This document shows positions 38,432-58,605 of a DNA stretch of 64,000 nt, in pieces. Position numbers and translations under genes: made by a program. The DNA comes from Pseudomonadota bacterium (lineage in GTDB: Bacteria > Pseudomonadota > Gammaproteobacteria > Xanthomonadales > Xanthomonadaceae): NCBI GenBank assembly GCA_018241125.1, contig JAFEEL010000044.1, positions 110,588-174,587 of the forward strand, given 5' to 3'. The stretch's first letter is position 1; each line of letters starts with the position of its first letter. The notes under the pieces are model-generated. The model was given only the letters and a program-made list of their open reading frames with translations, had not been told where the DNA came from and did not search any database.

Positions 38432-40114
38432 TCAGGCGTGCATCGGCAGCGGGATGGCGATCGACTCCACGGCGGCGCGGCCACGGGCTTCCATCGAGGC
38501 CAGGAAGCGCCAGACGAACAGCAAGGTCACCGCCAGCAGGCCCGGGTAGCCGATCCCGGCCAGCAGGTAGGGCAGGGTCGGATCGCCATCCACGCGCACC
38601 CGCGGCAGCCCGAAGCTGAGCAGGCCCAGGGTGATGATGGCGCCGAACACCCACATCCCGGTCAGCCAGATGCCCGCCTCGAAGCCGCTCAACGGGCGGC
38701 TCCAGCCGACCGCGGCGCTCGGCGCCGGGATGGCCGGTGCGGCCACCCGCACGCGCTTGCCCAGTGTGGCCAGGTCGTACACCAGCAGTCCGGTCCCGAC
38801 CGCGAACAGGAAGCCGAACACCGGCACCAGCAACTTGAAGATGCCCATCGCCGGGAAGATGTCGCCGCCGAACCAGTGCAGGCCGAGCGTGCGATACACG
38901 AACACCTGCACGGTGCCACCCAGCGCGAACGACAGCGAGATGCCCAGGATCGAGGCGAACAGCAGCCAGAACGCCAGCTTGCCCAGCCGCTGGTCGAAGT
39001 CGGTCGCCTTGCGGATCACCGGTACCGCGTAATAGGCCGCGGCGATGCCGAGCATGCCGAAGGTGCCAAACAGCGCCAGGTGCGCGTGGCTGGGCGTGAC
39101 CCAGGTGCCGTGCGACCACACGTTGGTCAGGGCGAAGGTCATGGTGAAGCCGAGGATCCCGGCGCCGACTTGTTCGAGCACCACCGAGCCGAGGATGAAG
39201 TAAAACGCCGGTGCATTTTCCAGCGGTCGCCGGTTCTGGTGGGCGTCGAGGTAGATGTGCCAGAAGCAGAACACCAGCGGCAGCGGTTCGAGCGCGCTGA
39301 ACAGCGATCCCCAGAATTGCCAGAACTCCGGCGTGCCGATCCAGAAATAGTGGTGGGCGTTGCCGATCAGGCCCGACAGCCACACCAGCGCCACACCCCA
39401 GAACACCGCGTAGCCGACCGATTTCACGTCCACCTTGAACAACAGCACCAGCAGGAAGCCGACCAGCGAGATGTGGATCACTTCCCACACCCCTTCCACC
39501 CAGTAGTGCACCACGAACCAGCGGAAGTATTCCTGCAGGTCGAGGCGGGCGACGTAGAACATGCCGAACAGCCAGACCACGGTCAGCGCCACCACCCCCA
39601 GCGCCAGCCCCCAATGCACTTCGTTCCACTGGCTGCGCGGCGGGAACGTGCGCAGCACCACGAAGGCCAGGATGCAGAACGCGACCAGGATCGCCACCTG
39701 CGCGGCGCGCCCGGCTTCCAGGTATTCCAGCCCCTGCTGCAACCACGGCTGGCCCTGCCACCAGCCGGCGATGCCGCGCATCGCCAGCCCCTGCGTGGCC
39801 ACGTTCCAGGCCACCACCACGATCACCGCGTAAAACAACAGCTTGACCAGCCATGGCGCGGCAAGGTCGCGCTTGGACAACAGCGGGCCGACAAAGAAGA
39901 TCGCGCCGATGAACCCGCACAAGATCCACAACAGGCCCAGATTCAAGTGCTCGGCGCGCACCACGTTGAAGTTGAGCGTGCCGGCCAGCAAGGTGGGGTC
40001 GGCCTGTTGCAGCGCCAGCAGCATCCCGAAGCCGACCTGCGCGGCGAACAGCACCAGCATCAGCATGAAATAGCGCAGGGCCAGACGCTGCGTCGGGTAT
40101 TGGATCTGCAACAT
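38432..40114 (-). CDS. norB: Nitric oxide reductase large subunit NorB, C-terminally extended
   Basis: 560 residues against about 466 for typical cNOR NorB. The start is the ATG overlapping the norC stop (TGATG); the open frame extends further upstream but lies over norC. Relative to Pseudomonas NorB all ligands are present with an offset of four: H56 and H345 (haem b), H343 (haem b3), H203, H254, H255 and E207 (Fe-B; HYWVEGVWE and GNAHHYFWIG). It reduces 2 NO to N2O in the inner membrane. The last 100 residues add two or more membrane helices not found in standard cNOR. Confidence 0.85.
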   Translation of the reverse strand: MLQIQYPTQRLALRYFMLMLVLFAAQVGFGMLLALQQADPTLLAGTLNFNVVRAEHLNLGLLWILCGFIGAIFFVGPLLSKRDLAAPWLVKLLFYAVIVVVAWNVATQGLAMRGIAGWWQGQPWLQQGLEYLEAGRAAQVAILVAFCILAFVVLRTFPPRSQWNEVHWGLALGVVALTVVWLFGMFYVARLDLQEYFRWFVVHYWVEGVWEVIHISLVGFLLVLLFKVDVKSVGYAVFWGVALVWLSGLIGNAHHYFWIGTPEFWQFWGSLFSALEPLPLVFCFWHIYLDAHQNRRPLENAPAFYFILGSVVLEQVGAGILGFTMTFALTNVWSHGTWVTPSHAHLALFGTFGMLGIAAAYYAVPVIRKATDFDQRLGKLAFWLLFASILGISLSFALGGTVQVFVYRTLGLHWFGGDIFPAMGIFKLLVPVFGFLFAVGTGLLVYDLATLGKRVRVAAPAIPAPSAAVGWSRPLSGFEAGIWLTGMWVFGAIITLGLLSFGLPRVRVDGDPTLPYLLAGIGYPGLLAVTLLFVWRFLASMEARGRAAVESIAIPLPMHA

Positions 40115-41088
40115 CAGCGCTTCTCCAGGCTGTGGATGTAGGCGACGATGTCCTTGACGTCGTCGTCCTTGAGCATCTGGCCGTATTGCTGCGGCATCAC
40201 GTCGGGGGTGAAGCCGGCCACGATCTTGGCGTTGGGCTTGACGATGGATTCGATCAGGTAGGCATCGTCGGCGGTGACCGTGCTGCCGTCGGTGAGCTTG
40301 ACCTTGGCTCCGTACAGCCCGCCCCAGTCGGGGCCGACCAAGTGCGGGCCGTCGATGGCGTGGCAGGCGGTGCAGCCGTTGTCCTTCGCCAACGCCTCGC
40401 CGTGCGCGATCGGGTCGGGCGTGGCGGCACTGGCGCTGGCCGCCGGTGCCGGCGCGGCGACCGGCGCCGTGCTGGCGACCTTCGTGCCGTGCAACAGTGC
40501 CAAGCGGTGCTGCAAGTCGCCGGTTTCCACCTTCGGCGGCCAGCCCTCCGTATTCATTTCGGAGGTGTACTTCAGGTAGGCGATCAGCTCGCCCACTTCG
40601 TCGGCGTGGAAGGGCAGGTTGGGCATGAAGGAGGTGCCGCCGCCACGCCGCTCGACGCGGTTTTTCGCGCCGGGGAACTTCTCGTAATACGCCGCCAGCG
40701 TGTCCACGCCGGCATCGGTGGCGATGGTCTTGTCGAGCAGTTGAGCGCGCAGCGCGCCCTCGGTGGGCCAGCCGCCGGCCGAGGGCAGGAACGCGGCCAG
40801 CCACGCCGGGCCGACCTGCTTGTATTCCTCGGTCAGATCCGGCGCAAGGTAGGCGCCGTTACCGACGATGGTGTGGCAGTCCATGCAGTTGTAGGCCTGG
40901 AACACGCGCTTGCCGGCGGTGGCCTGATAGCGCCCGAAGTGCACCTGATCGGGCGTGACCTGCCCGCGGTCGACGAGGAATGAAAAGCCCGAGAGCATGG
41001 CGAACACGCCCACCATCAGCCCGAACATGGCCAGCGCGCGCCGGCGCTTGATCGGTTCGTCGCAGTTCTTGCCGTCGGCGCAGGTCAT
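40114..41088 (-). CDS. norC: NorC fused to a second caa3-like cytochrome c domain
   Basis: 324 residues; ordinary NorC is about 150. One membrane anchor at about 18-39, then a NorC domain with haem site C68-M-D-C-H72 and axial M155 (SFMPNLPFH). After an Ala/Pro linker (205-225) comes a second cytochrome c, C239-T-A-C-H243 with M298, whose text (VGPDWGGLYG, DDAYLIESIVKP, DVMPQQYG, IVAYIHSLE) resembles the cytochrome domain of caa3 oxidase subunit II. Electrons probably pass from the outer to the inner haem and then to NorB. Confidence 0.87.
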   Translation of the reverse strand: MTCADGKNCDEPIKRRRALAMFGLMVGVFAMLSGFSFLVDRGQVTPDQVHFGRYQATAGKRVFQAYNCMDCHTIVGNGAYLAPDLTEEYKQVGPAWLAAFLPSAGGWPTEGALRAQLLDKTIATDAGVDTLAAYYEKFPGAKNRVERRGGGTSFMPNLPFHADEVGELIAYLKYTSEMNTEGWPPKVETGDLQHRLALLHGTKVASTAPVAAPAPAASASAATPDPIAHGEALAKDNGCTACHAIDGPHLVGPDWGGLYGAKVKLTDGSTVTADDAYLIESIVKPNAKIVAGFTPDVMPQQYGQMLKDDDVKDIVAYIHSLEKR

Positions 41089-41336
41089 GGCGTGCCTGCC
41101 TTGTCATCGCCGACTCTGGCCTTCTCGATGGCATCGTGCGCGAACAACGTGCGCAAGGCACCGAGGAAGGCGTAGAACACGTACACCGCCAGCAGGTAGC
41201 CGACCGCAAAGTAGACCTTCCACATCTCGTGCGAGGCCGGCCAGTACGCGAAGTCGCGCCAGAATGGCCACGACAGCGCCAGTCCGGCGGCACTGGCCAC
41301 CATCGACAACGTCAAGTCGATCGCCCGTTGCGTCAT
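41085..41336 (-). CDS. Small membrane protein, first gene of the nor operon
   Basis: 83 residues from the ATG six bases after AGGAG. Two membrane helices (about 8-25 and 42-64) with an aromatic-rich connection, then a charged tail. It overlaps norC by ATGA. Unrecognised; it may be an extra subunit or assembly factor of this nitric oxide reductase. Confidence 0.65.
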   Translation of the reverse strand: MTQRAIDLTLSMVASAAGLALSWPFWRDFAYWPASHEMWKVYFAVGYLLAVYVFYAFLGALRTLFAHDAIEKARVGDDKAGTP

Positions 41337-41443
41337 CTGCGGCTCCTGTTGTGTGTGCATCCCCAGCGCCACCGGCTGCTGGAGGCCGCGCGCCTGCCTG
41401 CACCGGAACGCCGGCAGCATTGGCCCGTGTGCAGGCCAACGCC

Positions 41444-46144: not shown

Positions 46145-46654
46145 TCAACCGGCAACGTTGCGTGCGGCTACCGCCAGCAAGCCGCGCAACACGGCGGTGG
46201 GCGAGGGCGGGCAGCCGGGGATGGTCAGGTCCACCGGGAGCACTTCGGACAGCGCGCCCAGCGCGGCATAGCTGCGCCCGAACACGCCGCCACAGGCGGC
46301 ACAGTCGCCGACCGCGACCAGTCGCTTGGGGTCGGGCATGGCGTCCCACGTGCGCTTCACCGCCGCGACCATGTTCGTGCCGATCGGGCCGGTCACCAGC
46401 AGCACGTCGGCGTGGCGCGGGCTGGCAACGAACCGGATGCCGTGGCCTTCGAGGTTGTAGTAGGGGTTGCCCAGCGCACTGAGTTCCAGTTCGCAGGCAT
46501 TGCACGAGGCGGCATCGACCAGACGCAGGCACAGCGCGCGGCCGAGGATCTGCCAGATCGCCGCGTGCAGGGCCGCCGGGGAGTCCGCCGCGGGCGTTGG
46601 CGGGTTTTGGCTGACGTTGCCGATGCGGGCGATCTGGCGCAGGGTCTTGAGCAT
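46145..46654 (-). CDS. hyfI: Hydrogenase-4/complex I small subunit (HyfI/NuoB-like)
   Basis: 169 residues. The 4Fe-4S (N2-type) cluster ligands are present: C51-x2-C54 (DAASCNACELE), C118 (GDCAACGG, with C121 nearby) and C148 (IPGCPPSP). NPYYNLEGHGIRFVASPRHADVLLVTGP is typical of HyfI/HycG. It would pass electrons to or from the large subunit. Intact here although the large subunit is degenerate, so the complex still seems to carry out redox chemistry. Confidence 0.9.
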   Translation of the reverse strand: MLKTLRQIARIGNVSQNPPTPAADSPAALHAAIWQILGRALCLRLVDAASCNACELELSALGNPYYNLEGHGIRFVASPRHADVLLVTGPIGTNMVAAVKRTWDAMPDPKRLVAVGDCAACGGVFGRSYAALGALSEVLPVDLTIPGCPPSPTAVLRGLLAVAARNVAG

Positions 46655-46675
46655 GGTCGGTGACCGCGGGGCCGG

Positions 46676-48220
46676 CTACAGGTCGTGCCCGCTGTAGGAC
46701 AGGTTGAAGGATTTGTTGATCAACGGGAAATCCGCGACGATGTTGCCGATCGCCGCATACTCGACCACCGGCCAGTTCTGCCACGAGGGGTCGTGCGGGC
46801 GGCAGCGGCGGATGCGGCCATCGGCGCCGGTCTGGATCGCCACCAGCACCGGGCCACGCCAGCCTTCCACGCTGCCGAGCGCGAACCCTTCGCCGGTCGC
46901 CGGAGCCAGTGCCACCGTCGCCGGGCCGGGCGGCAGGTTCTCCAGCAAGCTGCGGCACAGGCGCAGCGATTCGCAGGCTTCCTCGAAACGTACCGCCACC
47001 CGTGCGGCGACATCGCCCTCGTCGCGGCCGGCCCGGCGCACGCCCAGCGCCCGGTACGGCTGCAGATCGCCATCCACCCGCTCGTCGCGGGCCACACCGC
47101 TGGCACGCCCGGCCAGCCCGATCAAGCCCAACCGGCGAGCCAGTTCGGGGCTGGCGCAGCCGGCGCCGACGAAGCGATCCTGCAGGCCCGAATGGTCGTC
47201 GTAGATCGCCCGCAGCGTCGCCACCTCGCGTTCCAGCAATGGCAGATCGGTCAGCAGATCCTTGCGCGCGGGTTCATCCAGGTCGCGGCCCACGCCGCCG
47301 GGCACGATGGCATCGAGTGGATAGCGCGCGCCGAACGCGGACTCGTTGCGCCGCAGCAGGTCTTCCTTGAGCCGCGAGAACTGGCTCAGGCCGAAGGCGA
47401 AGCCGCCATCGTTGCCCAACGCGCCCAGATCGCCCAGATGGTTGGCCAGCCGTTCGCGTTCGAGCAACAGCGCGCGCAGGGCGCAGGCGCGAGTCGAAAC
47501 CTCGGTGCCGGTCAGGGCTTCGGCGGCCATCGCGTAGGCCCATCCAAAAGCCACCGTGCTGTCGCCGGAAATCCGTGCCGCCAGCCGCGCGCCTTCGGTC
47601 AAGGTCATGCCGATGAAACGCCGCTCGATCCCTTTGTGCGTGTAGCCCAGGCGCGTTTCCAGACGCAGGACTTTCTCGCCGACCACCGCAAAGCGGAAAT
47701 GCCCGGGTTCGATGATGCCGGCGTGGACCGGGCCGACCGCGATTTCGTGTACGCCCTCGCCGGTCACCCGCACGAAGGGGTATTCGGGTGGCTCGTCGCG
47801 GTCACGCCGATCCATGCCGGCAATGCGCAGCGGGAAGGTCTGCCATTGACCGTGATCGAGCCAACCGCGCCCGTCGCCGCCCTTGGCGCGAATACCGGTC
47901 AGGTCGAAGTTGGCCCGTTGCAGCCGCGCGGCAACCGGGAAGATCGGCGCCAGATCCGGGTGCTCGGGTGCGTGCGCGTGCAGCGGCGAGGCGCTGACCA
48001 GCAGGCCCGCGTCGTCTTCCAGCGCCAGCCACAGCGTGAAGCCTCGGCCGAGGTCGCGATCATCGGTGCCCCACAGGCTGCGCAGGCGTCCGCCGGCATC
48101 GGCCACCGCCTGACACAGCGCCGGCAAGCGCGCGATCCCGACCTCGGCGTGGCGCGCGCGCAGCGGGCCGGGCAGCGGCGCGGCGGTGATCCCCGCAGGC
48201 AGGGCGGCGGACGTGCTCAT
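46676..48220 (-). CDS. hyfG: Hydrogenase large-subunit homologue lacking all Ni-Fe cysteines (HyfG/NuoCD-like)
   Basis: 514 residues; start ATG overlaps the hyfF stop. Residues 25-165 are NuoC-like, 165-514 NuoD-like (VGPVHAGIIEPGHFRF, RLGYTHKGIERRF). The proximal CxxC of hydrogenases is replaced by R216-I-S-G-D-S221, and the distal DPCxxC by N506-L-S-Y-S-G511, at the very C-terminus with no maturation peptide. A Ni-Fe site is therefore impossible. The quinone-side features of complex I may remain, so the protein may bind quinone or another partner instead of H2. Confidence 0.88.
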   Translation of the reverse strand: MSTSAALPAGITAAPLPGPLRARHAEVGIARLPALCQAVADAGGRLRSLWGTDDRDLGRGFTLWLALEDDAGLLVSASPLHAHAPEHPDLAPIFPVAARLQRANFDLTGIRAKGGDGRGWLDHGQWQTFPLRIAGMDRRDRDEPPEYPFVRVTGEGVHEIAVGPVHAGIIEPGHFRFAVVGEKVLRLETRLGYTHKGIERRFIGMTLTEGARLAARISGDSTVAFGWAYAMAAEALTGTEVSTRACALRALLLERERLANHLGDLGALGNDGGFAFGLSQFSRLKEDLLRRNESAFGARYPLDAIVPGGVGRDLDEPARKDLLTDLPLLEREVATLRAIYDDHSGLQDRFVGAGCASPELARRLGLIGLAGRASGVARDERVDGDLQPYRALGVRRAGRDEGDVAARVAVRFEEACESLRLCRSLLENLPPGPATVALAPATGEGFALGSVEGWRGPVLVAIQTGADGRIRRCRPHDPSWQNWPVVEYAAIGNIVADFPLINKSFNLSYSGHDL

Positions 48221-49671
48221 CCGATCATCGCCGCCGCGAGGCGGTACCACTGCGCCAGCACCGGCGGGATGTACAGCCCCAGGCACAGTACCAGCGCCAG
48301 ATGCGCGAATACCGGCAGCAGCGAGGGCCGGTGTGGCAGTGGCATGAGATCGTGTTCGCCGAACACCATCGTCTGCACGCGCCGGAAGATCGCCGCGAAC
48401 GCCATCGCCAGCGCCAGCACCAGCAGCGGGGTCGCCCACGGGTGCTCGTGCATGGCGGTGGTGAGGATCAGGAACTCGCTGGCGAACACTCCGAACGGCG
48501 GCATCCCGAGGATCGCCAGGGTACCCAGCATCAAGCCCCAGCCGATCCGCGGGCTGAGTGAAATCAGGCCGCGGATGCCGTCCATGTCCTGCGTCCCGGC
48601 CTTCTGGGTGGCGTGGCCGACCACGAAAAAAATCCCCGACTTGGTCAGCGAGTGCACGGTCAGGTGCAGCAGGGCGGCGAAGTTGGCCACCGGACCGCCC
48701 ATCCCGAAGGCGAACGTGGCGATGCCCATGTGCTCGATCGACGAATACGCGAACAACCGCTTGACATCCTTCTGTCGCCACAGGAACAACGTCGCCAGCA
48801 GCAGCGAGAGCAGGCCGAAACCCATCATCAGGTTCCCGGCCAGACCGCCGGGAACCGCGCCATCCACCAGCACCTTGCAGCGCACCACCGCGTACAGGGC
48901 GACGTTGAGCAACAGCCCGGACAGCACCGCCGAGACTGGCGTGGGCCCCTCGGAATGGGCATCGGGCAGCCAGTTGTGCAGCGGCGCCATACCCACCTTG
49001 GTGCCGTAGCCGACCAGCAGGAACACGAACGCCAGCGCCAGCACGGTCGGCTCCAGCTGCCCCTTGACCGCGTTCAGGTGGGTCCACAGCAGGGCCGCTT
49101 CGCCTTGGGTGCCGAGCACCTTGCCGGCCGCGAAGTACAGCAGCACGGTGCCGAACAACGCTTGGGCGATGCCGACCCCGCACAGGATGAAGTATTTCCA
49201 CGCCGCTTCGAGGCTGGCCGGGGTGCGGTACAGCGACACCAGCAGCACGGTGGACAAGGTGGCCATCTCCATCGCCACCCACAGGATGCCGAGGTTGTTG
49301 GTCAGCAGCGCCACTAGCATGGTCGCCATGAACAACTGGTACATGCTGTGGTACAGGCGCATCCGCGCCGGGGTCAGGCGCCCGCGGTGGGTTTCGATGC
49401 GCATGTACGGTCGCGAGAACACCGCCGTGGTCAGGCCGACGAAGCTGGTCAGCACCACCAGAAAGACGTTGAAGGGGCCGACGAAGAACTGCTCGTGCCA
49501 GACCAGCAGCGGGCCTTCGGCCATGACCTGCGCGGTGAGCGCGATGCTGGCCACGAAGGTGCACAGGCTGATCGCCACGTTGGCCTCGGCTGCACGCCGG
49601 CGCGCTCCGGTCAAGGCCAGCAGGACGCAGCCCAGCAGCGGGCAGGCCAGCGTCAAGGCGAGCGCGTTCAT
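48217..49671 (-). CDS. hyfF: Antiporter-like membrane subunit HyfF (NuoN/NuoM-like)
   Basis: 484 residues, about 14 membrane helices. The H+ translocation signature (ILWVAMEMATLSTVLLVSLYR with its Glu, GTKVGMAPLHNWLPDAHSEGPTPVSAVLSG with Lys and His) is conserved, as in mrp/complex I antiporter subunits. Overlaps its neighbours by ATGA on both sides. Confidence 0.88.
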   Translation of the reverse strand: MNALALTLACPLLGCVLLALTGARRRAAEANVAISLCTFVASIALTAQVMAEGPLLVWHEQFFVGPFNVFLVVLTSFVGLTTAVFSRPYMRIETHRGRLTPARMRLYHSMYQLFMATMLVALLTNNLGILWVAMEMATLSTVLLVSLYRTPASLEAAWKYFILCGVGIAQALFGTVLLYFAAGKVLGTQGEAALLWTHLNAVKGQLEPTVLALAFVFLLVGYGTKVGMAPLHNWLPDAHSEGPTPVSAVLSGLLLNVALYAVVRCKVLVDGAVPGGLAGNLMMGFGLLSLLLATLFLWRQKDVKRLFAYSSIEHMGIATFAFGMGGPVANFAALLHLTVHSLTKSGIFFVVGHATQKAGTQDMDGIRGLISLSPRIGWGLMLGTLAILGMPPFGVFASEFLILTTAMHEHPWATPLLVLALAMAFAAIFRRVQTMVFGEHDLMPLPHRPSLLPVFAHLALVLCLGLYIPPVLAQWYRLAAAMIG

Positions 49672-50333
49672 GGGTCGTCCTCCTTGAGCTTTTCCAGATG
49701 CTGCAAGTCGAGGCTGTCGAACTGCTCGCGGATCTGGAAAAAGAACACGCCCAGGATCGCCACCCCGACCAGCACGTCCAGAGCGATGCCCAACTCGACC
49801 ACCATCGGCATGCCGTAGGTGGCGCTGGTGGCGGCGAAGAACAGGCCGTTCTCCATCGCCAGAAAGCCGACCACCTGCGAGATCGCCTTGCTGCGGGTGA
49901 TCATCATCAGGAACGACAGCAAGATCACCGCCAGCGCCACGCCCAGGGTGCCGCGGGCGATGGTGGTGGCCATGTGCGCGACCGGCTGGGCCAGCCCGAA
50001 GGCGAACACCACCAGCACGATGCCCACCAGCATGGTGCTGGGGATGTTGAGCAGTGGCTCACGGTCCCAGCGCACGCCCAGGCGCGCGATCAGGCGTTGC
50101 AGGATCCACGGCAGCAACGCCGCCTTGAGCACGAACGAGAGCGCCGCCGAGTAGTACAGGTGGGACAGGCCGGAACTGAAGGCCACGATCGCGGTGGAAA
50201 TCGACAGCACCGCGCCTTGCAACGCGTACAGATCCACCAGCGAGACGATCCGTCGTTGCGAGAGCATGGCGAACGCCAGTAGCAGCATCAGCGCCGCACA
50301 CAGGTTGATCAGCTGGGGCACGAGGATGGCCAT
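49668..50333 (-). CDS. hyfE: Membrane subunit HyfE (NuoK-like)
   Basis: 221 residues, six or seven membrane helices; the C-terminal half has the NuoK-like FLAMENGLFFAATSATYG segment with a membrane Glu. Links the antiporter subunits to the HyfC platform. Confidence 0.85.
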   Translation of the reverse strand: MAILVPQLINLCAALMLLLAFAMLSQRRIVSLVDLYALQGAVLSISTAIVAFSSGLSHLYYSAALSFVLKAALLPWILQRLIARLGVRWDREPLLNIPSTMLVGIVLVVFAFGLAQPVAHMATTIARGTLGVALAVILLSFLMMITRSKAISQVVGFLAMENGLFFAATSATYGMPMVVELGIALDVLVGVAILGVFFFQIREQFDSLDLQHLEKLKEDDP

Positions 50334-50336
50334 CGT

Positions 50337-51287
50337 TCACACCTCCAGCAGCAAGTGCAGCAGCAGCCCGAGCACCGCCAGCAGGAAGGCGGTGGCGAGG
50401 AACTCCGGGGCACGGAAGATGCGCAGCTTCGCGCTCACCGTCTCGATCAGCGCCAGCCCGGCGCCGACCGCGAGCAGCTTGGCGATGGTGATCGCGGCGG
50501 TGGCGGCGATGCCCCAGGCGCCAGCCTGCGGGCCGGCCAAGCCCCAAGGCACGAACAGCGCCAGCCCGATCAGGGCGTAGTTTTGCAGCTTCAGCGCCGC
50601 CGCCCACTCCACCAGCGCCAGGTGGCGGCCTGAATACTCCAGCACCATGGCTTCGTGGATCATCGTCAGTTCGAGGTGGGTGGTCGGGTTGTCGATCGGG
50701 ATGCGCGCGTTCTCGGCCAGCAGCACCATCACGAAGGCGGTCGCGGCGAAGGCCAGGCTGGGGTAGATGGTGAAGTGGCTGTGCCCGAGGGTGGCGATGA
50801 TGGTCGGCAGCAGGGTGCTGCCGGAGATCATCGAGGCGGTGAACAGCACCATCAACAGCGCCGGCTCGGACAGGAAGCCGATCAGCATTTCCCGGCGCGC
50901 GCCCAGCGAGCCGAACGCGGTGCCCACGTCCATCGCCGCCAGCGCGGCGATGACCCGCGCGATCGCGAACACGCCGACCAAGGCGATGGTGTCGGCGGCC
51001 ATGCCGAGGCGGTTTTCACGCGTGATCGCCGGGATGATCGTCGCGGCCAGCGCCATTGCCCCGAATTGCACGTAGGGCGCGGCACGGAACAGCGGAGAGG
51101 CCGTGTGCGCGACCACGGCATCCTTGTGCAGCAGCTTGCGGATGCCACGCCACGGCTGCAGTACGCCGGCGCCGGCGCGGTTCTGCAAACGCGCCCGGCA
51201 CACGTCGACCCAGCCCACCAGCAGCGGCGCGGCGACCATCGCCAGCGCGCTTTCCAGCACCGTCGGGAGCAGTGCGGCGACGTTCAC
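50337..51287 (-). CDS. hyfC: Membrane subunit HyfC (NuoH-like)
   Basis: 316 residues, eight membrane helices. RARLQNRAGAGVLQPWRGIRKLLHKD and RIPIDNPTTHLELTMIHEAMVLEYSG are the NuoH/HyfC signature loops that contact the small and large subunits. It overlaps hyfB by ATGA and is three bases ahead of hyfE. Confidence 0.9.
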   Translation of the reverse strand: MNVAALLPTVLESALAMVAAPLLVGWVDVCRARLQNRAGAGVLQPWRGIRKLLHKDAVVAHTASPLFRAAPYVQFGAMALAATIIPAITRENRLGMAADTIALVGVFAIARVIAALAAMDVGTAFGSLGARREMLIGFLSEPALLMVLFTASMISGSTLLPTIIATLGHSHFTIYPSLAFAATAFVMVLLAENARIPIDNPTTHLELTMIHEAMVLEYSGRHLALVEWAAALKLQNYALIGLALFVPWGLAGPQAGAWGIAATAAITIAKLLAVGAGLALIETVSAKLRIFRAPEFLATAFLLAVLGLLLHLLLEV

Positions 51288-53296
51288 AACACGAACACCA
51301 GCAGGGCCAGCAGGGTGACGAAGCTGTAGAGCAGGTAGATCGCGATCTTGCCCTGTTGCAGGCGACCGATCCTGCGCGCCACCGCCAGTACCGCATCAGC
51401 GGTCGGCAGGTACAGCCAGTGCCACCACTTGTCGGCCAGAAACAGGGCGTAATGCGGATGGGTGTCGGCTGGGCTCGGGTCGTTCCAGTTGATGCGGAAG
51501 AATGGCCGGAAGATGCGCCGGATCGGCTGCCCGAAGCCCTCGGCGGTGTCTTGCATCCGCGCGGTCCATTCCGGGTAGCCGCAGTTCCATGCCGCGCTGC
51601 GGCGCACGCGACCGCGGTAGAGCGCGCGCATGCCCAGCCACGCCAGCGCGATCGCCAGCGCGATGCCCCCGGCGAACGCGCCCGGGCTGTAGGAGGCGCG
51701 GGTCGGCGCCCCGGCGATCAGCAACCAGCCGTGGGTGGCGTGCTCACCCAGCGAGGTGCCGAGCAAGCTGGCATTGACCGCATCCAGCCCGTGCAGCACC
51801 GTGACCGGCGCCAGCCCCAGCGCGACGCACGCCAGCGCCAGCCAGAGCAGGCCGCAGCGTTCCAGCCAGCCGGCATCGTCCGCCTTGGCCAGTGCCGCCT
51901 CGCGCGGCTGGCCGAGGAAGATCACGCCGAAGAACTTGACCATCACGAATGCCGCCAGCGCCACGGTCAGGGCCAACGCAGCCGCGCCCAGCGGCGCGAG
52001 CATGTTGACGATCGCGTGTGGCAGCGCCGGGGTGAACAGGTAGCTTTGCAGCAGCAACCATTCGGAAACGAAGCCGTTGAGTGGCGGCAGCCCGGCGGCA
52101 GCCAGCGTGCCGACCAGCGCCAGCCACGCCACCCACGGCATGCGGTGGATCAAGCCGCCAAGGCGGCCCAGGTTGCGTTGGCCGGTGGCGTGCAGAACCG
52201 AGCCGGTGGCCAGGAACAACAGACTCTTGAATACCGCGTGGTTGAGGCAGTGATAGAGCGTGGCCGCCAGCGCCAGCGCCGCCGCCATGTCCATCCCGAG
52301 GCTGCGGAACAGCAGCGTCAGGCCGACGCCGGTCAGGATCACCCCGATGTTTTCGATCGACGAGTAGGCCAGCAGCCGCTTCATGTCGGTCTGAACCGCC
52401 GCGAAGATCGCCCCGAACAGGGCGGTGAACGCCCCGATCGCCAGCACCGCCGCGCCCCAGCCCCACATGGGCGCGTGCAGCAAGTCGAAGGAGATCCGCA
52501 GCAGGCCGTAAATGGCAATCTTGAGCATGACCCCGCTGAGCAGCGCCGATGCGGGTGAGGGAGCCACTGGGTGCGCCTCGGGCAGCCACACGTGCAGGGG
52601 CACCAGTCCGGCCTTGGCGCCGAAGCCGAACAAGGCCAGCGCGAACGCCAAGCTGGCCTGCCACGGCGTGAGCGAGGCCGCACGCATGGCCGCAAAGGTG
52701 AACTGCCACGAACCGCCCTGCAGGACGCCGAAGGACAACAGGATCGCCAGCGCACCGATGTGCGCGATCAGCAGGTAGAGGAAGCCGGCGTTGCGGATCT
52801 CGGGGATGCGGTGCTGGGTGGTGACCAGGAAGTACGACGAAACCGCCATGATTTCCCACGCGACCATGAACGCGTAGGCGTCGTCGGCCAGCACCACCAG
52901 TGCCATGCTGGCCAGAAATACGTGGTATTGCAGGCACAGCAGGCCCGGCAGCGAACCCTCGCCGCTGCGAAAGTAACCGGCCGAATACAGTGAAGTGCCG
53001 AACGAGGCCACGCCGATCAAGGTCAGAAACACCCCGGCCAGCGGATCCAGGCGCAGGTGGAAGGGCAGGTCGGGCAGGCCCAGCGGCAACACCATCGACT
53101 GCGCCGGTGCCGCCAGCGCGAACACGCCGATGACCAGCAAGGCCGTGCTGCCCAGCGCGCCCAGCACGAACAGCAGACGCCCGGAAACGAACGTGCTGCG
53201 CGGTCGCAGCAACCCGGCCACACCGATCGCCAACCAGCCACCGACCACCGCCAGCGCGGCGGGCAGCAGGTCGGACTCGGGCCAGAGGAAATCCAT
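51284..53296 (-). CDS. hyfB: Antiporter-like membrane subunit HyfB (NuoL-like)
   Basis: 670 residues from the ATG after the MDFLWPESD start, about 16 membrane helices. WEIMAVSSYFLVTTQ, FGFGAKAGLVPLHVWLPEAHPVAPSPASALLSGVMLK and YHCLNHAVFKSLLFLATGSV give the proton-channel Glu, Lys and His. First gene of the hyf-like operon, 133 bp downstream of a small XRE regulator. Confidence 0.9.
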   Translation of the reverse strand: MDFLWPESDLLPAALAVVGGWLAIGVAGLLRPRSTFVSGRLLFVLGALGSTALLVIGVFALAAPAQSMVLPLGLPDLPFHLRLDPLAGVFLTLIGVASFGTSLYSAGYFRSGEGSLPGLLCLQYHVFLASMALVVLADDAYAFMVAWEIMAVSSYFLVTTQHRIPEIRNAGFLYLLIAHIGALAILLSFGVLQGGSWQFTFAAMRAASLTPWQASLAFALALFGFGAKAGLVPLHVWLPEAHPVAPSPASALLSGVMLKIAIYGLLRISFDLLHAPMWGWGAAVLAIGAFTALFGAIFAAVQTDMKRLLAYSSIENIGVILTGVGLTLLFRSLGMDMAAALALAATLYHCLNHAVFKSLLFLATGSVLHATGQRNLGRLGGLIHRMPWVAWLALVGTLAAAGLPPLNGFVSEWLLLQSYLFTPALPHAIVNMLAPLGAAALALTVALAAFVMVKFFGVIFLGQPREAALAKADDAGWLERCGLLWLALACVALGLAPVTVLHGLDAVNASLLGTSLGEHATHGWLLIAGAPTRASYSPGAFAGGIALAIALAWLGMRALYRGRVRRSAAWNCGYPEWTARMQDTAEGFGQPIRRIFRPFFRINWNDPSPADTHPHYALFLADKWWHWLYLPTADAVLAVARRIGRLQQGKIAIYLLYSFVTLLALLVFVL

Positions 53297-53429: not shown

Positions 53430-53681
53430 TCATGGCAGGGCTTTCAAGCGCACCCCGCGGCCGTGGCCGCGGCTGGGCGCGTCGTTGCCGATCAACTCGA
53501 TGCCGGCGGCCTCCAGCGCCTCGACCACCTTGGTCAAGGTGCCGACGACCCCGCGCACCACGCCGCCGCTGGCTTCCATGCGCTGGATGGTGGGCACAGA
53601 TACGCCGGCCAGCTTGGCCAGCTCGCGCTGGTCGATGCCGAGCAGGGCGCGCGCTGCGCGCATCTGGGCGGAGGAGATCAT
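53430..53681 (-). CDS. XRE-family HTH regulator
   Basis: 83 residues. Helix-turn-helix MRAARALLGIDQRELAKLAGVSVPTIQRMEAS at residues 7-38, then a helical segment that should dimerise. It reads towards the hyf-like operon and is divergent from the RHH antitoxin gene; between them are two inverted repeats. It may regulate either side. Ribosome site weak. Confidence 0.75.
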   Translation of the reverse strand: MISSAQMRAARALLGIDQRELAKLAGVSVPTIQRMEASGGVVRGVVGTLTKVVEALEAAGIELIGNDAPSRGHGRGVRLKALP

Positions 53682-53728: not shown

Positions 53729-53805
53729 TATTGTGATGTATCAAACATCTTTTTCTTGCGAAGAAACCGATTTGGATGCAGAATGGAACCGAACTGAGGT
53801 TTGCC

Positions 53806-54048
53806 ATGACCACGCTCACCCTCAAGAACATCCCGGACGAGGTGTACCAACGCTTGCGCAGTTCGGCAGAGCGCCATCGGCGCAGCCTGAATCGTGAAGC
53901 CATCGTCTGCCTCGAAACGGCGCTGGCACCCACGCGCCTGCCGCCAGCCGAGCGCCTTGCCCGTGCGCGTGCGCTGCGCTCGGACTTGGCCGCAGGCGAT
54001 TACTCCGCCGGCGACATCGACACGTTCAAGCGCGCAGGTCGGGTGTGA
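53806..54048 (+). CDS. FitA-like ribbon-helix-helix antitoxin
   Basis: 80 residues. TTLTLKNIPDEVYQRLRSSAERHRRSLNREAIVCLE is the RHH fold of FitA/VapB; the C-terminal 35 residues bind the toxin. It overlaps the PIN toxin by four bases (GTGA). Confidence 0.85.
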   Translation: MTTLTLKNIPDEVYQRLRSSAERHRRSLNREAIVCLETALAPTRLPPAERLARARALRSDLAAGDYSAGDIDTFKRAGRV

Positions 54049-54449
54049 TCGTCGTCGATAGCAACATCCTGGCCTATCTGTATCTGCCCGGAGCGCACAC
54101 CGCCGCCGCCGAAGCGCTGCTGGCCCGCGACGGCGACTGGGCCGCGCCGCTGCTTTGGCGCAGCGAGTTCCGCAACATTCTGGCCGGGTATCTGCGTCGC
54201 GGCGCGCTGACATTCGAGCAGGCGTGTGCGCTGCAAAGCGAAGCCGAGTCGCTGATGACCGGCGCAGAGTACGAGGTGGACTCGCGCGCCGTGCTGGCGT
54301 TGGTGCAGGCCAGCGATTGTTCGGCCTACGACTGCGAGTTCGTGGCCTTGGCACGCCAGTTGGGCACCAAGCTGGTGACGATGGATCGCCAACTGCTGCG
54401 AGCGTTTGCGCACGATGCGCAGGCGCTGGCTCACTCGCCCTCGAAATAA
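54045..54449 (+). CDS. vapC: PIN-domain toxin (VapC/FitB-like)
   Basis: 134 residues from GTG. IVVDSNILAYLYLPG (Asp5), LLWRSEFRNILAGYL (Glu), SAYDCEFVALARQLG (Asp) and LVTMDRQLLRAF (Asp) give the four acidic residues of the ribonuclease. Pairs with the RHH antitoxin. Confidence 0.88.
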   Translation: MIVVDSNILAYLYLPGAHTAAAEALLARDGDWAAPLLWRSEFRNILAGYLRRGALTFEQACALQSEAESLMTGAEYEVDSRAVLALVQASDCSAYDCEFVALARQLGTKLVTMDRQLLRAFAHDAQALAHSPSK

Positions 54450-54545
54450 TCGCCGTCGATCTTCTTGAACTGGCGGCGGCTGGACGTAAGGATCGGGCCA
54501 CCGCAGGTCGCAGGCACTTGCTTGAATCATGTGTTTCGTCTATTT

Positions 54546-54560
54546 TGTCCAAAACGGACA
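54546..54560 (+). promoter_or_regulatory. Inverted repeat upstream of Phd/PIN module
   Basis: TGTCC-AAAAC-GGACA, 10 bp before the antitoxin start codon; a likely autorepression operator. Confidence 0.5.
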
Positions 54561-54570
54561 TGGAAACATC

Positions 54571-54822
54571 ATGCGCACCGTGACCGCATCGCAAGCCAAG
54601 CAGGGTTTTGCCGAAGTGCTCGACGCGGCCGCCCGTGAGCCGGTCGTCATCCGCCGCCACAACCGCGACGTGGCGGTGGTGATTTCGATGCACGACTACG
54701 AGCGCCTGCACCGATTGAACGTCGAGGAGTTTCTTCGCGTTGCCGACGAGATCGGGCGCGAAGCCGTGCGCCGTGGGTTGACCGAGGAAAAACTGGCCGC
54801 ACTGCTGGCCAGCGATGATTGA
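54571..54822 (+). CDS. Phd/YefM-family antitoxin
   Basis: 83 residues. TVTASQAKQGFAEVLDAAAREPVVIRRHNRDVAVVISMHDYERL is the complete Phd DNA-binding fold. The acidic helical tail precedes a PIN toxin, with eight bases of overlap. Separate from the module just upstream. Confidence 0.88.
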   Translation: MRTVTASQAKQGFAEVLDAAAREPVVIRRHNRDVAVVISMHDYERLHRLNVEEFLRVADEIGREAVRRGLTEEKLAALLASDD

Positions 54823-55225
54823 GCGTCGCTGGGTTGTCGATACCAACGTATTGGTCGCGCATGCGCTGATGCCAGCAGGTACGGCAGCACGTGCGGTAGA
54901 ACGTGCGGCGCGCAGCGGCGTGCTGCTGGTTTCTCGGGAAACTCTGGCAGAACTCGTGGCGGTGTTGGCGCGCAAAAAGTTCGTACGCTACCTTACGTCA
55001 CAGGCCCGGCTTGATTACCTGCGCGCGTTCGCCGGTGCGGCCAAACTCGTGGAAATCCACTGGTGCGGCGCGGTGTGCCGCGATCCGAACGATGACAAGT
55101 TCCTGCACGTGGCCGTGAACGGGCAGGCCGATGCGATCATCACCGGCGATGCCGACTTGCTGGCGCTGCACCCGTTCCACGGCGTGGACATCCTGACGCC
55201 AGCAGATTTTCTGCGGCGCGGGTGA
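54815..55225 (+). CDS. PIN-domain toxin (COG1569-like)
   Basis: 136 residues. WVVDTNVLVAHAL (Asp9), ETLAELVAVLARKKF (Glu), CRDPNDDKFLHVAV (Asp cluster) and IITGDADLLAL (Asp) are the PIN residues. Overlaps the Phd-type antitoxin. Confidence 0.87.
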   Translation: MIERRWVVDTNVLVAHALMPAGTAARAVERAARSGVLLVSRETLAELVAVLARKKFVRYLTSQARLDYLRAFAGAAKLVEIHWCGAVCRDPNDDKFLHVAVNGQADAIITGDADLLALHPFHGVDILTPADFLRRG

Positions 55226-57351: not shown

Positions 57352-57828
57352 TCAGGGCTTGCCCTTGCGCAGCCGCGCGAGCGCATCGAGCACCGCCTGT
57401 GCGTGCCCGGCCACCTTCACCGGACTCCAGCGGTCGCGCACGATGCCTTCCGGATCGACCAGAAACGTGCTGCGGATGATGCCGCGCACTTTCTTCCCGT
57501 ACATGTTTTTCTCGCCGATCACGCCGAACGCGTTGCACAACGCTTCATCGGGATCGCTGGCCAGATCGAATTCGAAGCCGTGCTTTGCGCAGAAATTCTG
57601 GTGCGACTTCACCGAATCCCGCGACACGCCCAACACCACCGCGCCGGCGCGCTTGAACTTCGGCAACAGTGCGTTGAAGTCGATGCCTTCGGTGGTGCAG
57701 CCGGGGGTGTTGTCCTTCGGATAAAAATACAGGGCGAGCCACTTGCCGGCGTAATCGGACAGGCGGGCGTTCGCGCCCGTGGACAGGATGAATGCGATCT
57801 CGGGGATGCGGTCGCCGATGTCGGGCAT
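57352..57828 (-). CDS. bcp: Thioredoxin-dependent thiol peroxidase (BCP/PrxQ family)
   Basis: 158 residues. KDNTPGCTTEGIDF contains the peroxidatic Cys44; the usual resolving Cys five residues later is absent (Ile49), and the only other candidate is Cys80 (HQNFCAKH), an atypical-BCP pattern. Reduces peroxides with thioredoxin. The start of the next gene is 22 bp away. Confidence 0.9.
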   Translation of the reverse strand: MPDIGDRIPEIAFILSTGANARLSDYAGKWLALYFYPKDNTPGCTTEGIDFNALLPKFKRAGAVVLGVSRDSVKSHQNFCAKHGFEFDLASDPDEALCNAFGVIGEKNMYGKKVRGIIRSTFLVDPEGIVRDRWSPVKVAGHAQAVLDALARLRKGKP

Positions 57829-57850
57829 CAGGATTCTCGTTGACGGTGCG

Positions 57851-58447
57851 TCAAAACTTCATCGGATCCATGATCGCGTCGAGGTTCAGATGATCGCAGA
57901 ACTCCAGGAAATCGTCGCGCAAGCCGGCGATGTGCATGTCGTTGGGCACGCCGATGGTGATTTGCGCGGTGAACATCTCCGCGCCGGTCTGCATCGCCTT
58001 GTAGCGCGAGCAACTCAGGTTCTCGATGCTGATGCCCAGCCGGTCGAAAAAATCGGCGAGCTGGAACAAGATGCCCTGCTTGTCGGCCGCCACGACTTCG
58101 ACGATGTACGGCAACAGGTTGGTTTGCAGCGGTTTGGGCGAGGTGCGGTTCCACATCAGCTTGATGGTTTTTTCCTCGCGCTCCAGCCGCGTCAGCGCCG
58201 ATTCGAGCTTGGCCACCGCGTCCCACGAGCCCACCGCCAGCGCGGTCACCGACACGTCGTGGCCGACCGTGGACAGGCGCGCATCGGCCAGATTGCAGCC
58301 CGACTCGGCGATGCGCCGGCTCAGCGCCAGCAGGGGCGAATCCGGGTGGGCGGCGCTGGCGTTGATCAGCAGGTGGTTTTCGTTGGCCGCCGGACGGCTG
58401 GCGGCATCGCTGGTCACGGTCGGTGCGGTGCGGCGGGCGGGAGGCAT
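57851..58447 (-). CDS. gcvR: ACT-domain protein, glycine cleavage repressor (GcvR-like)
   Basis: 198 residues from ATG; the longer upstream frame is non-coding. Two ACT domains, around residues 25-95 ([35 protein letters not shown]) and 110-190 ([29 protein letters not shown]). GcvR-like proteins sense glycine for control of the glycine cleavage system. In the bcp-gcvR order common in gammaproteobacteria. Confidence 0.82.
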
Positions 58448-58605
58448 GGCGTCGGGCGGTCTCGGATCGCAGGCGAAAGGCGGGCCGTGGTTCCTCCGAC
58501 CGCTGCGCCAGCATAGGGTCGGCGCTGCCAAGCCGCAAGCACCGCGGGGCCATGGCAAAATCTGCCGTCAAGGCCGCGGGCTGGCAGGAAATCCCCTACG
58601 GGAAG

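Follow-up and report, generated by a model that had tools for sequence, protein, structure and literature searches.

The energy-converting-hydrogenase-related (Ehr) complexes of Geobacter (EhrA-L-S) and Nitrospira consist of group 4 hydrogenase-like subunits and antiporter-like membrane subunits, and they have no Ni-Fe ligands (according to the portions available of PMC6349859, PMC10284858, PMC7894505 and PMC12342949). In the accessible part of the last source, Ehr is found in about half of the Nitrospirales genomes, its function is given as unknown and its expression in N. moscoviensis does not rise with H2. The present study deals with a complex of the same composition, encoded by six genes (hyfBCEFGI) in a stretch of 64,000 nucleotides (the window, 64 kb) from a Xanthomonadaceae genome (Pseudomonadota; GCA_018241125.1, contig JAFEEL010000044.1, positions 110,588 to 174,587). 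The same six genes occur in Cupriavidus (C. metallidurans CH34, Rmet_4666-4671; C. necator H16, H16_A2196-A2201), where they were reported in 2010 as resembling an incomplete hyf operon; in the part of that paper available (PMC2864759) a role in lithotrophic growth was judged very unlikely and no other function was proposed. A literature search by the Cupriavidus locus tags turned up nothing beyond it. The Ehr group is already named and widely reported and its six-gene form has been in print since 2010, the window holding a further member.

The Hyf proteins of CH34 are 55-71% identical to those of the window. Unlike the published Ehr loci, the window's complex has neither a formate dehydrogenase nor hydrogenase maturation genes nor a ferredoxin subunit nearby. 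The formate hydrogenlyases of E. coli (HycE/FHL-1 and Hyf/FHL-2) have the same subunit types, with 31% identity to 7z0s_E in a fold alignment, but the window lacks the four cysteines, the canopy Asp529, HycF/HycB, FdhF, the maturation tail and HypD. Complex I (NuoCD/B/H/L/M/N) has the membrane logic in common with the complex, and its channel residues are similar to those of Ehr; it differs in that neither an N-module nor NuoI accompanies the operon, the tyrosine column holds Gly and the canopy Asp is replaced by Asn. The archaeal MBS/Mbx complex, likewise related to group 4 and altered at its metal site, was matched in the PDB (6u8y) at E 3.3e-13. No homologue of HyfH, HyfA/HycB, NuoI (partial query), NuoE/F/G or FdhF was found in the window at E<=1e-5, in agreement with an earlier note on this DNA, which had seen neither HyfH/NuoI nor an NADH module there.

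Judged by its sequence, the complex descends from a group 4 (Hyf-type) hydrogenase and should no longer handle H2; it is probably (about 0.85) a redox-driven ion pump that is not a hydrogenase. The architecture, the loss of the Ni-Fe ligands, the missing maturation tail, the conservation of cluster ligands, pocket and channels, and the absence of HypD are established.

The large subunit HyfG was aligned with E. coli HycE, HyfG and NuoCD and other relatives, the alignment comprising 93 distinct Ehr sequences with that of the window included. The earlier note had claimed that all four Ni-Fe cysteines were replaced, in the motifs R216-ISGDS and N506-LSYSG; both motifs read as quoted, and S218, S221, S508 and G511 occupy the ligand columns. 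None of the four cysteines is present in 88 of the 93 sequences, and one is present in the remaining 5. The note had also named two findings as contrary to its reading, a CxxC pair elsewhere in the large subunit and a second hydrogenase large subunit outside the window. HyfG holds no CxxC pair, and outside the window PF00346 is matched in the genome by complex I NuoD only (PF00374 was not searched).

All 93 sequences are identical at R216, D220, R455, G456, K503, S504, N506 and D513, although such invariance figures lean to closer relatives, since the 80 loci kept are the best of at least 576 confirmed ones. R216 (HycE R239), the canopy arginine R455 (HycE R478) and D513 have been kept from HycE, whereas D220 corresponds to HycE I243, K503 to HycE G526 and N506 to HycE D529, described as the canopy aspartate in the portion available of PMC9474812. 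This aspartate is present in hydrogenases and complex I, and all 93 Ehr sequences have Asn at that column. The tyrosine column of the complex I 49-kDa subunit, which we take to be that of the quinone-site tyrosine, is Gly in 92/93 Ehr sequences. The Ni-Fe pocket has thus neither decayed nor taken on the form of a complex I quinone site; a new and invariant pocket has replaced it. The earlier description of the site as lost stands for the ligands and not for the pocket, where an invariant set of residues has taken its place.

The end of the protein has also changed. Maturation of HycE cleaves the protein behind R537. Beyond this column HycE has 32 residues and every one of the 93 Ehr sequences has none; hyfG encodes an already mature C-terminus, as expected if nickel insertion has ceased. 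An AlphaFold model of HyfG alone (mean pLDDT 84.3) gave E. coli HycE as its top fold match (7z0s_E, E 7.8e-32), HycE being the closest solved relative by sequence too. The pocket loops 148-168 and 178-196 and the C-terminus 509-514 have pLDDT below 50, so no pocket cavity can be mapped on the model.

Related to this, no HypD was found in the window genome (G000), which should therefore mature no [NiFe] hydrogenase. Among 398 sampled genomes of the window's phylum, 62 carry Ehr, taken as a score of 391 bits or more with the family alignment (G201, truncated and at 303 bits, is excluded), and HypD is absent from 40 of these. It is present in all ten genomes with a lower-scoring hit (250-285 bits, the range of enteric HycE/HyfG); four of those ten large subunits were inspected and each has the four cysteines. 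A genome of the window's own class holds a HycE 97% identical to that of E. coli, in line with the phylum being Pseudomonadota.

The earlier note held, furthermore, that the small subunit keeps its Fe-S ligands and that the proton-channel residues look intact, and both observations extend to the relatives. The HyfI cluster cysteines C51, C54, C118 and C148 are conserved in 81/81 rows, rows under 70% coverage having been dropped beforehand. Charged residues of the membrane subunits are found at frequencies of at least 97% in HyfB (E148, K228, K306, H349, K357 and E412; 67 rows), in HyfF (E135, K225, K304, H336, K344 and E399; 78 rows) and in HyfC (D100, D121, E134, E142, E193, D200, E207, E213, E218 and E228; 72 rows). 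When the six hyf genes are compared with those of two congeners, the ratio of differences at third codon positions to those at second positions ranges from 1.8 to 3.3, and this excess in all six genes is a sign of purifying selection. Both the redox input and the ion pump seem to be under selection. At two loci (L098 and L111) the HyfI homologue was undetected beside an otherwise complete cluster.

In a midpoint-rooted tree of 71 large subunits, which includes 49 of the 93 Ehr sequences and for which the program warned of long branches, the window lies inside a cluster of 52 rows (support 96/94), apart from NuoD and from the true hydrogenases, which form their own clade (100/99). This cluster also holds Geobacteraceae, Nitrospirota, Leptospirillum, Acidobacteriota and many Pseudomonadota. 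Since Geobacteraceae, Nitrospirota and Leptospirillum share it, the window looks to be of the same family, named reference EhrL sequences not being in the tree; together with the missing Ni-Fe ligands, this grouping supports the assignment to Ehr made before. The hyf gene order is largely conserved among relatives. Five contigs (L042, L071, L091, L103 and L263) carry two complete or nearly complete Ehr-type clusters, adjoining or a few kb apart, several of them of differing subtype. The large subunits of L158 (G097) and L159 (G349) are likewise cysteine-less, show the motif N/D/L/G and stand on very long branches, possibly representing another lineage without a Ni-Fe site. HyfG matches were found on 89 plasmid or megaplasmid records, mostly of Rhizobium (31) and Azospirillum (14); some of these may be true hydrogenases.

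A fuller mechanism, in which the pump has ferredoxin as donor and quinone as acceptor, is offered tentatively, at somewhat under even odds. A soluble low-potential 2[4Fe-4S] ferredoxin would dock on HyfI at the former HyfH position and reduce the single [4Fe-4S] cluster of this subunit. The electrons would then pass to an acceptor, most likely a quinone, in a polar pocket made of R216, D220, K503, N506, Y509, D513 and R455 and placed at the HyfG/HyfI/HyfC junction. Turnover in the pocket would drive HyfC and then HyfE/F/B, so that H+ (or Na+) is moved. In this scheme it is inferred that ions are pumped, that ferredoxin donates and quinone accepts the electrons, and in which direction the complex works. 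The earlier note had called the partner unknown; some evidence now supports a ferredoxin donor.

Part of this evidence comes from Piscinibacter (L071), Rhodoferax (L091) and a Variovorax plasmid (L263), in which a second complex lies about 1 to 6 kb from the window-type complex on the same contig. In these second complexes the Ni-Fe cysteines are absent and the HyfI homologue has an N-terminal 4Fe-4S domain, a fusion that would mark both the electron entry point and the type of carrier protein. The other part comes from genome G235 (L153, L175), of about 0.93 Mb and 33% GC, whose Ehr genes have open frames, hyfC being split by a contig break. E. coli queries were run at E<=1e-4 (some at 1e-3) against 933,182 bases of this genome, a search that divergent homologues could escape and that covered the contigs up to C48 except for parts of C1, C21 and C45. 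Only fragments of nuoB and nuoCD remain of complex I, on the same contig as hyfB, and complex I appears to be decaying there while Ehr is kept. No NuoF was found, nor any match to NDH-2, COX1/heme-copper oxidase, cytochrome bd, formate dehydrogenase, PFL, PFOR or PDH. Retained are F1Fo subunits, FrdAB, GlpC, MenA, UbiE and an NfnAB-like fusion, as well as a YfhL-like ferredoxin (79.3 bits, cut-off 86) and FixABCX-like genes under the cut-offs; the names FixA/B, FrdAB and NfnAB are readings of the matches where no cut-off was passed. In this gene content, Ehr is the sole redox-driven pump found in G235, and the remaining parts best allow a reaction from ferredoxin to menaquinone. Among the 398 genomes, strong FixX carriers have Ehr in 7 of 15 cases, against 62/398 overall (Fisher p 0.004, uncorrected for kinship; the FixX and HypD carrier lists were transcribed by hand before the statistics). 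FixX was rejected as a general partner, with just 15 strong carriers in the 398 genomes and the window genome not one of them.

Several observations weigh against this reading. The Ehr complex is patchy in the window's family: 59 other genomes were searched as relatives, and four of them (G001, G002, G008 and G050) have a clear orthologue. HypD is somewhat commoner in Ehr carriers (22/62) than in the rest (71/336; p 0.02, uncorrected for kinship). The Gly at the complex I tyrosine column means that a quinone would require a new site. The fused lineage (L071, L091) does not belong to the main Ehr cluster of the tree (96/94), a placement on long branches that was marked as a possible artefact, and it retains Asp at position 506. 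In G235 no fumarate reductase membrane anchor was found with an sdhC query, and MenA and UbiE were the sole hits among the menaquinone genes tried. FixX is not clearly present in the window genome, where the hit sits in a 544-amino-acid frame (E 4.5e-12); the lone PF01512 protein of this genome is complex I NuoF, and its RnfC_N match is weak (E 7e-4). The absence of FixX there makes Fix at most one of several ferredoxin sources. Because the Fix and ferredoxin scores of G235 are below the curated cut-offs and the fumarate reductase anchor is missing, our confidence in the full mechanism was lowered slightly, to the level given above. Finally, formate dehydrogenase genes near L064 and L087 and the PurU gene of L106 point to formate, as do Geobacter proteomics, in which Ehr abundance goes with formate (available portion of PMC7894505).

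These genes lead to an alternative in which formate dehydrogenase feeds the complex, which would then pump protons as a formate:quinone oxidoreductase; such a role has been put forward for sibling lineages of Cyanobacteria (available portion of PMC6349859). We consider it unlikely. In 95 sequences with flanks of up to 10 kb, often shorter, a formate dehydrogenase cluster was found within 5 kb downstream of hyfI in just two, its start being 1.5 kb from hyfI in L087 and 4.3 kb in L064; in both, the alpha gene is above the TIGR01591 cut-off and has NuoF-like partners, with match E values below 1e-100. In L106 the formate-releasing PurU is inserted between hyfG and hyfI, and L062, L117 and L044 have nothing but weak molybdoenzyme matches near Ehr. 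No formate dehydrogenase gene lies in the window. Molybdop_Fe4S4 is matched neither in G219 and G235, for which a completeness of 100% is listed, nor in G318 (78% complete), and in at least 8 further of 66 Ehr genomes the sole match is within 2 kb of NuoF, that is, NuoG. The window genome has two such matches, and the one examined is PhsA-like and far under every formate dehydrogenase cut-off. On these matches, formate dehydrogenase was rejected as an obligate partner.

It is rather less probable still that the machine runs in reverse, the proton-motive force pushing electrons from quinol to ferredoxin or NAD(P)+, as in the reverse electron transport of lithotrophs. The iron or sulphur oxidisers Gallionella, Sideroxyarcus, Thiobacillus, Leptospirillum and Mariprofundus are indeed among the 80 loci kept, SthA lies within 5 kb of Ehr in seven sequences (G091, G321, G248, G418, L046, L054 and L056) and Rnf genes lie downstream of Ehr in G091 and G321; SthA and Rnf are thus joint neighbours in a single lineage, SthA being close to Ehr in a few more. 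But heterotrophs carry Ehr too, and in the window genome nothing matches SthA at E<=1e-60 and no RnfC exceeds the cut-off. RnfC_N, above its cut-off in 214/398 genomes, a count over three times that of the Ehr carriers, is unspecific, and Rnf was rejected as a general partner. A non-redox or CO2-related device, such as an antiporter or a DAB-like aid to CO2/bicarbonate uptake with a merely structural redox arm, is improbable: SulP-like transporters near Ehr would fit it (L037, L044, L053, L057 and L103), but they were matched in just 5/85 sequences, and both the invariance of the HyfI cysteines and the charged, invariant pocket argue for a working redox arm. The SulP gene of L103 (11664-13904, from a Geobacteraceae genome) lies between hyfG and hyfI, its best model being BicA, far below the cut-off. 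That the locus is a functionless, decaying hydrogenase relic would agree with its patchy presence; given the purifying selection on six genes, the invariant pocket and its retention in a reduced genome with complex I fragments, this is very improbable, and the relic was rejected on conservation.

Neighbouring genes were searched by clustering 5086 open reading frames from 85 sequences. No conserved redox neighbour was found in them, the clusters being mostly antisense shadows of hyf genes; HTH, SulP, spermidine-synthase-like, SthA and Rnf genes turn up repeatedly, but only locally. A spermidine-synthase-like gene lies within a few kb of Ehr in 10/85 sequences (L046, L054, L056, L060, L083, L067, L071, L042, L058 and L070), and one is also near Ehr in Variovorax (L263) and C. 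metallidurans (L264).

The features of the locus are collected in the table below. The earlier note spoke of six overlapping genes; the six homologues are there, but they overlap, by 4 bases, only at three of the five junctions (B/C, E/F and F/G), with gaps of 3 bases at C/E and 21 bases at G/I, so that its wording was loose. Of the six proteins, HyfB and HyfF are recognised above the cut-off by NCBIfam models ('hydrogenase 4 subunit B / F'), whereas HyfC, HyfE, HyfG and HyfI match NuoH, HyfE, NuoD and NuoB models, all under the NCBIfam cut-offs; HyfC, HyfG and HyfI pass Pfam cut-offs. The small regulator upstream of hyfB, with homologues in 10/85 sequences including the window, is possibly the controller of the hyf operon. 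The gene thiD lies downstream of the hyf genes.

Table. Coordinates (positions in the window) of the hyf genes and the adjacent regulator; aa, amino acids.
Feature	Position	Strand	Description
hyfB	51284..53296	-	NuoL/MrpA-like antiporter subunit, 670 aa; NCBIfam NF005086 852.7 bits (cut-off 667); Pfam PF00361
hyfC	50337..51287	-	NuoH-like coupling subunit, 316 aa, GTG start; Pfam PF00146 107 bits
hyfE	49668..50333	-	Small membrane subunit, 221 aa; NCBIfam NF008556 90.9 bits, below cut-off 136
hyfF	48217..49671	-	NuoM/N-like antiporter subunit, 484 aa; NCBIfam NF005045 851 bits (cut-off 543)
hyfG	46676..48220	-	Large subunit, 514 aa; 30-kDa and 49-kDa-like domains; Ni-Fe cysteines replaced by S/S/S/G
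hyfI	46145..46654	-	Small subunit, 169 aa; one [4Fe-4S] site, C51/C54/C118/C148; Pfam PF01058 103.6 bits
XRE/HTH_3 small regulator	53430..53681	-	Directly upstream of hyfB; Pfam PF01381

Other genes of the window deserve mention. A bcp/PrxQ-like peroxiredoxin and a GcvR-like repressor (57352-58558, minus strand), both below NCBIfam cut-offs, are encoded some 4 kb upstream of hyfB; the gcvR-bcp pair of E. coli K-12 is directly upstream of hyfA, and this nearness is either a shared old location or a coincidence. Two small putative VapBC-like toxin-antitoxin pairs (53776-55225, plus strand) are placed between the XRE regulator and phoH, one PIN protein passing TIGR00305 and the other matching nothing. 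At 38432-41420 (minus strand) there are cytochrome c and heme-copper oxidase-like genes (PF00115 match at G000:C38:149469-150674), the oxidase being nitric oxide reductase-like by reading.

The proposed mechanism may be carried further, into a speculation that we hold to be doubtful. Ehr would then be a minimal ferredoxin:quinone proton pump able to replace complex I, with a site for quinone (or a new substrate) unlike the known ones and derived from a dead Ni-Fe pocket; in the 0.93-Mb genome, where it is the sole redox-driven pump found, it would probably be fed by electron-bifurcating FixABCX-like proteins, Fix and Ehr together forming a split NADH:quinone oxidoreductase. Cultured Cupriavidus strains that carry the six genes make testing practical. 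With the pocket, the ferredoxin fusion and the reduced genome, what was an unknown partner becomes a specific, testable reaction, which, if true, would close a gap that lies, in the evolution of quinone reduction, between hydrogenases and complex I.

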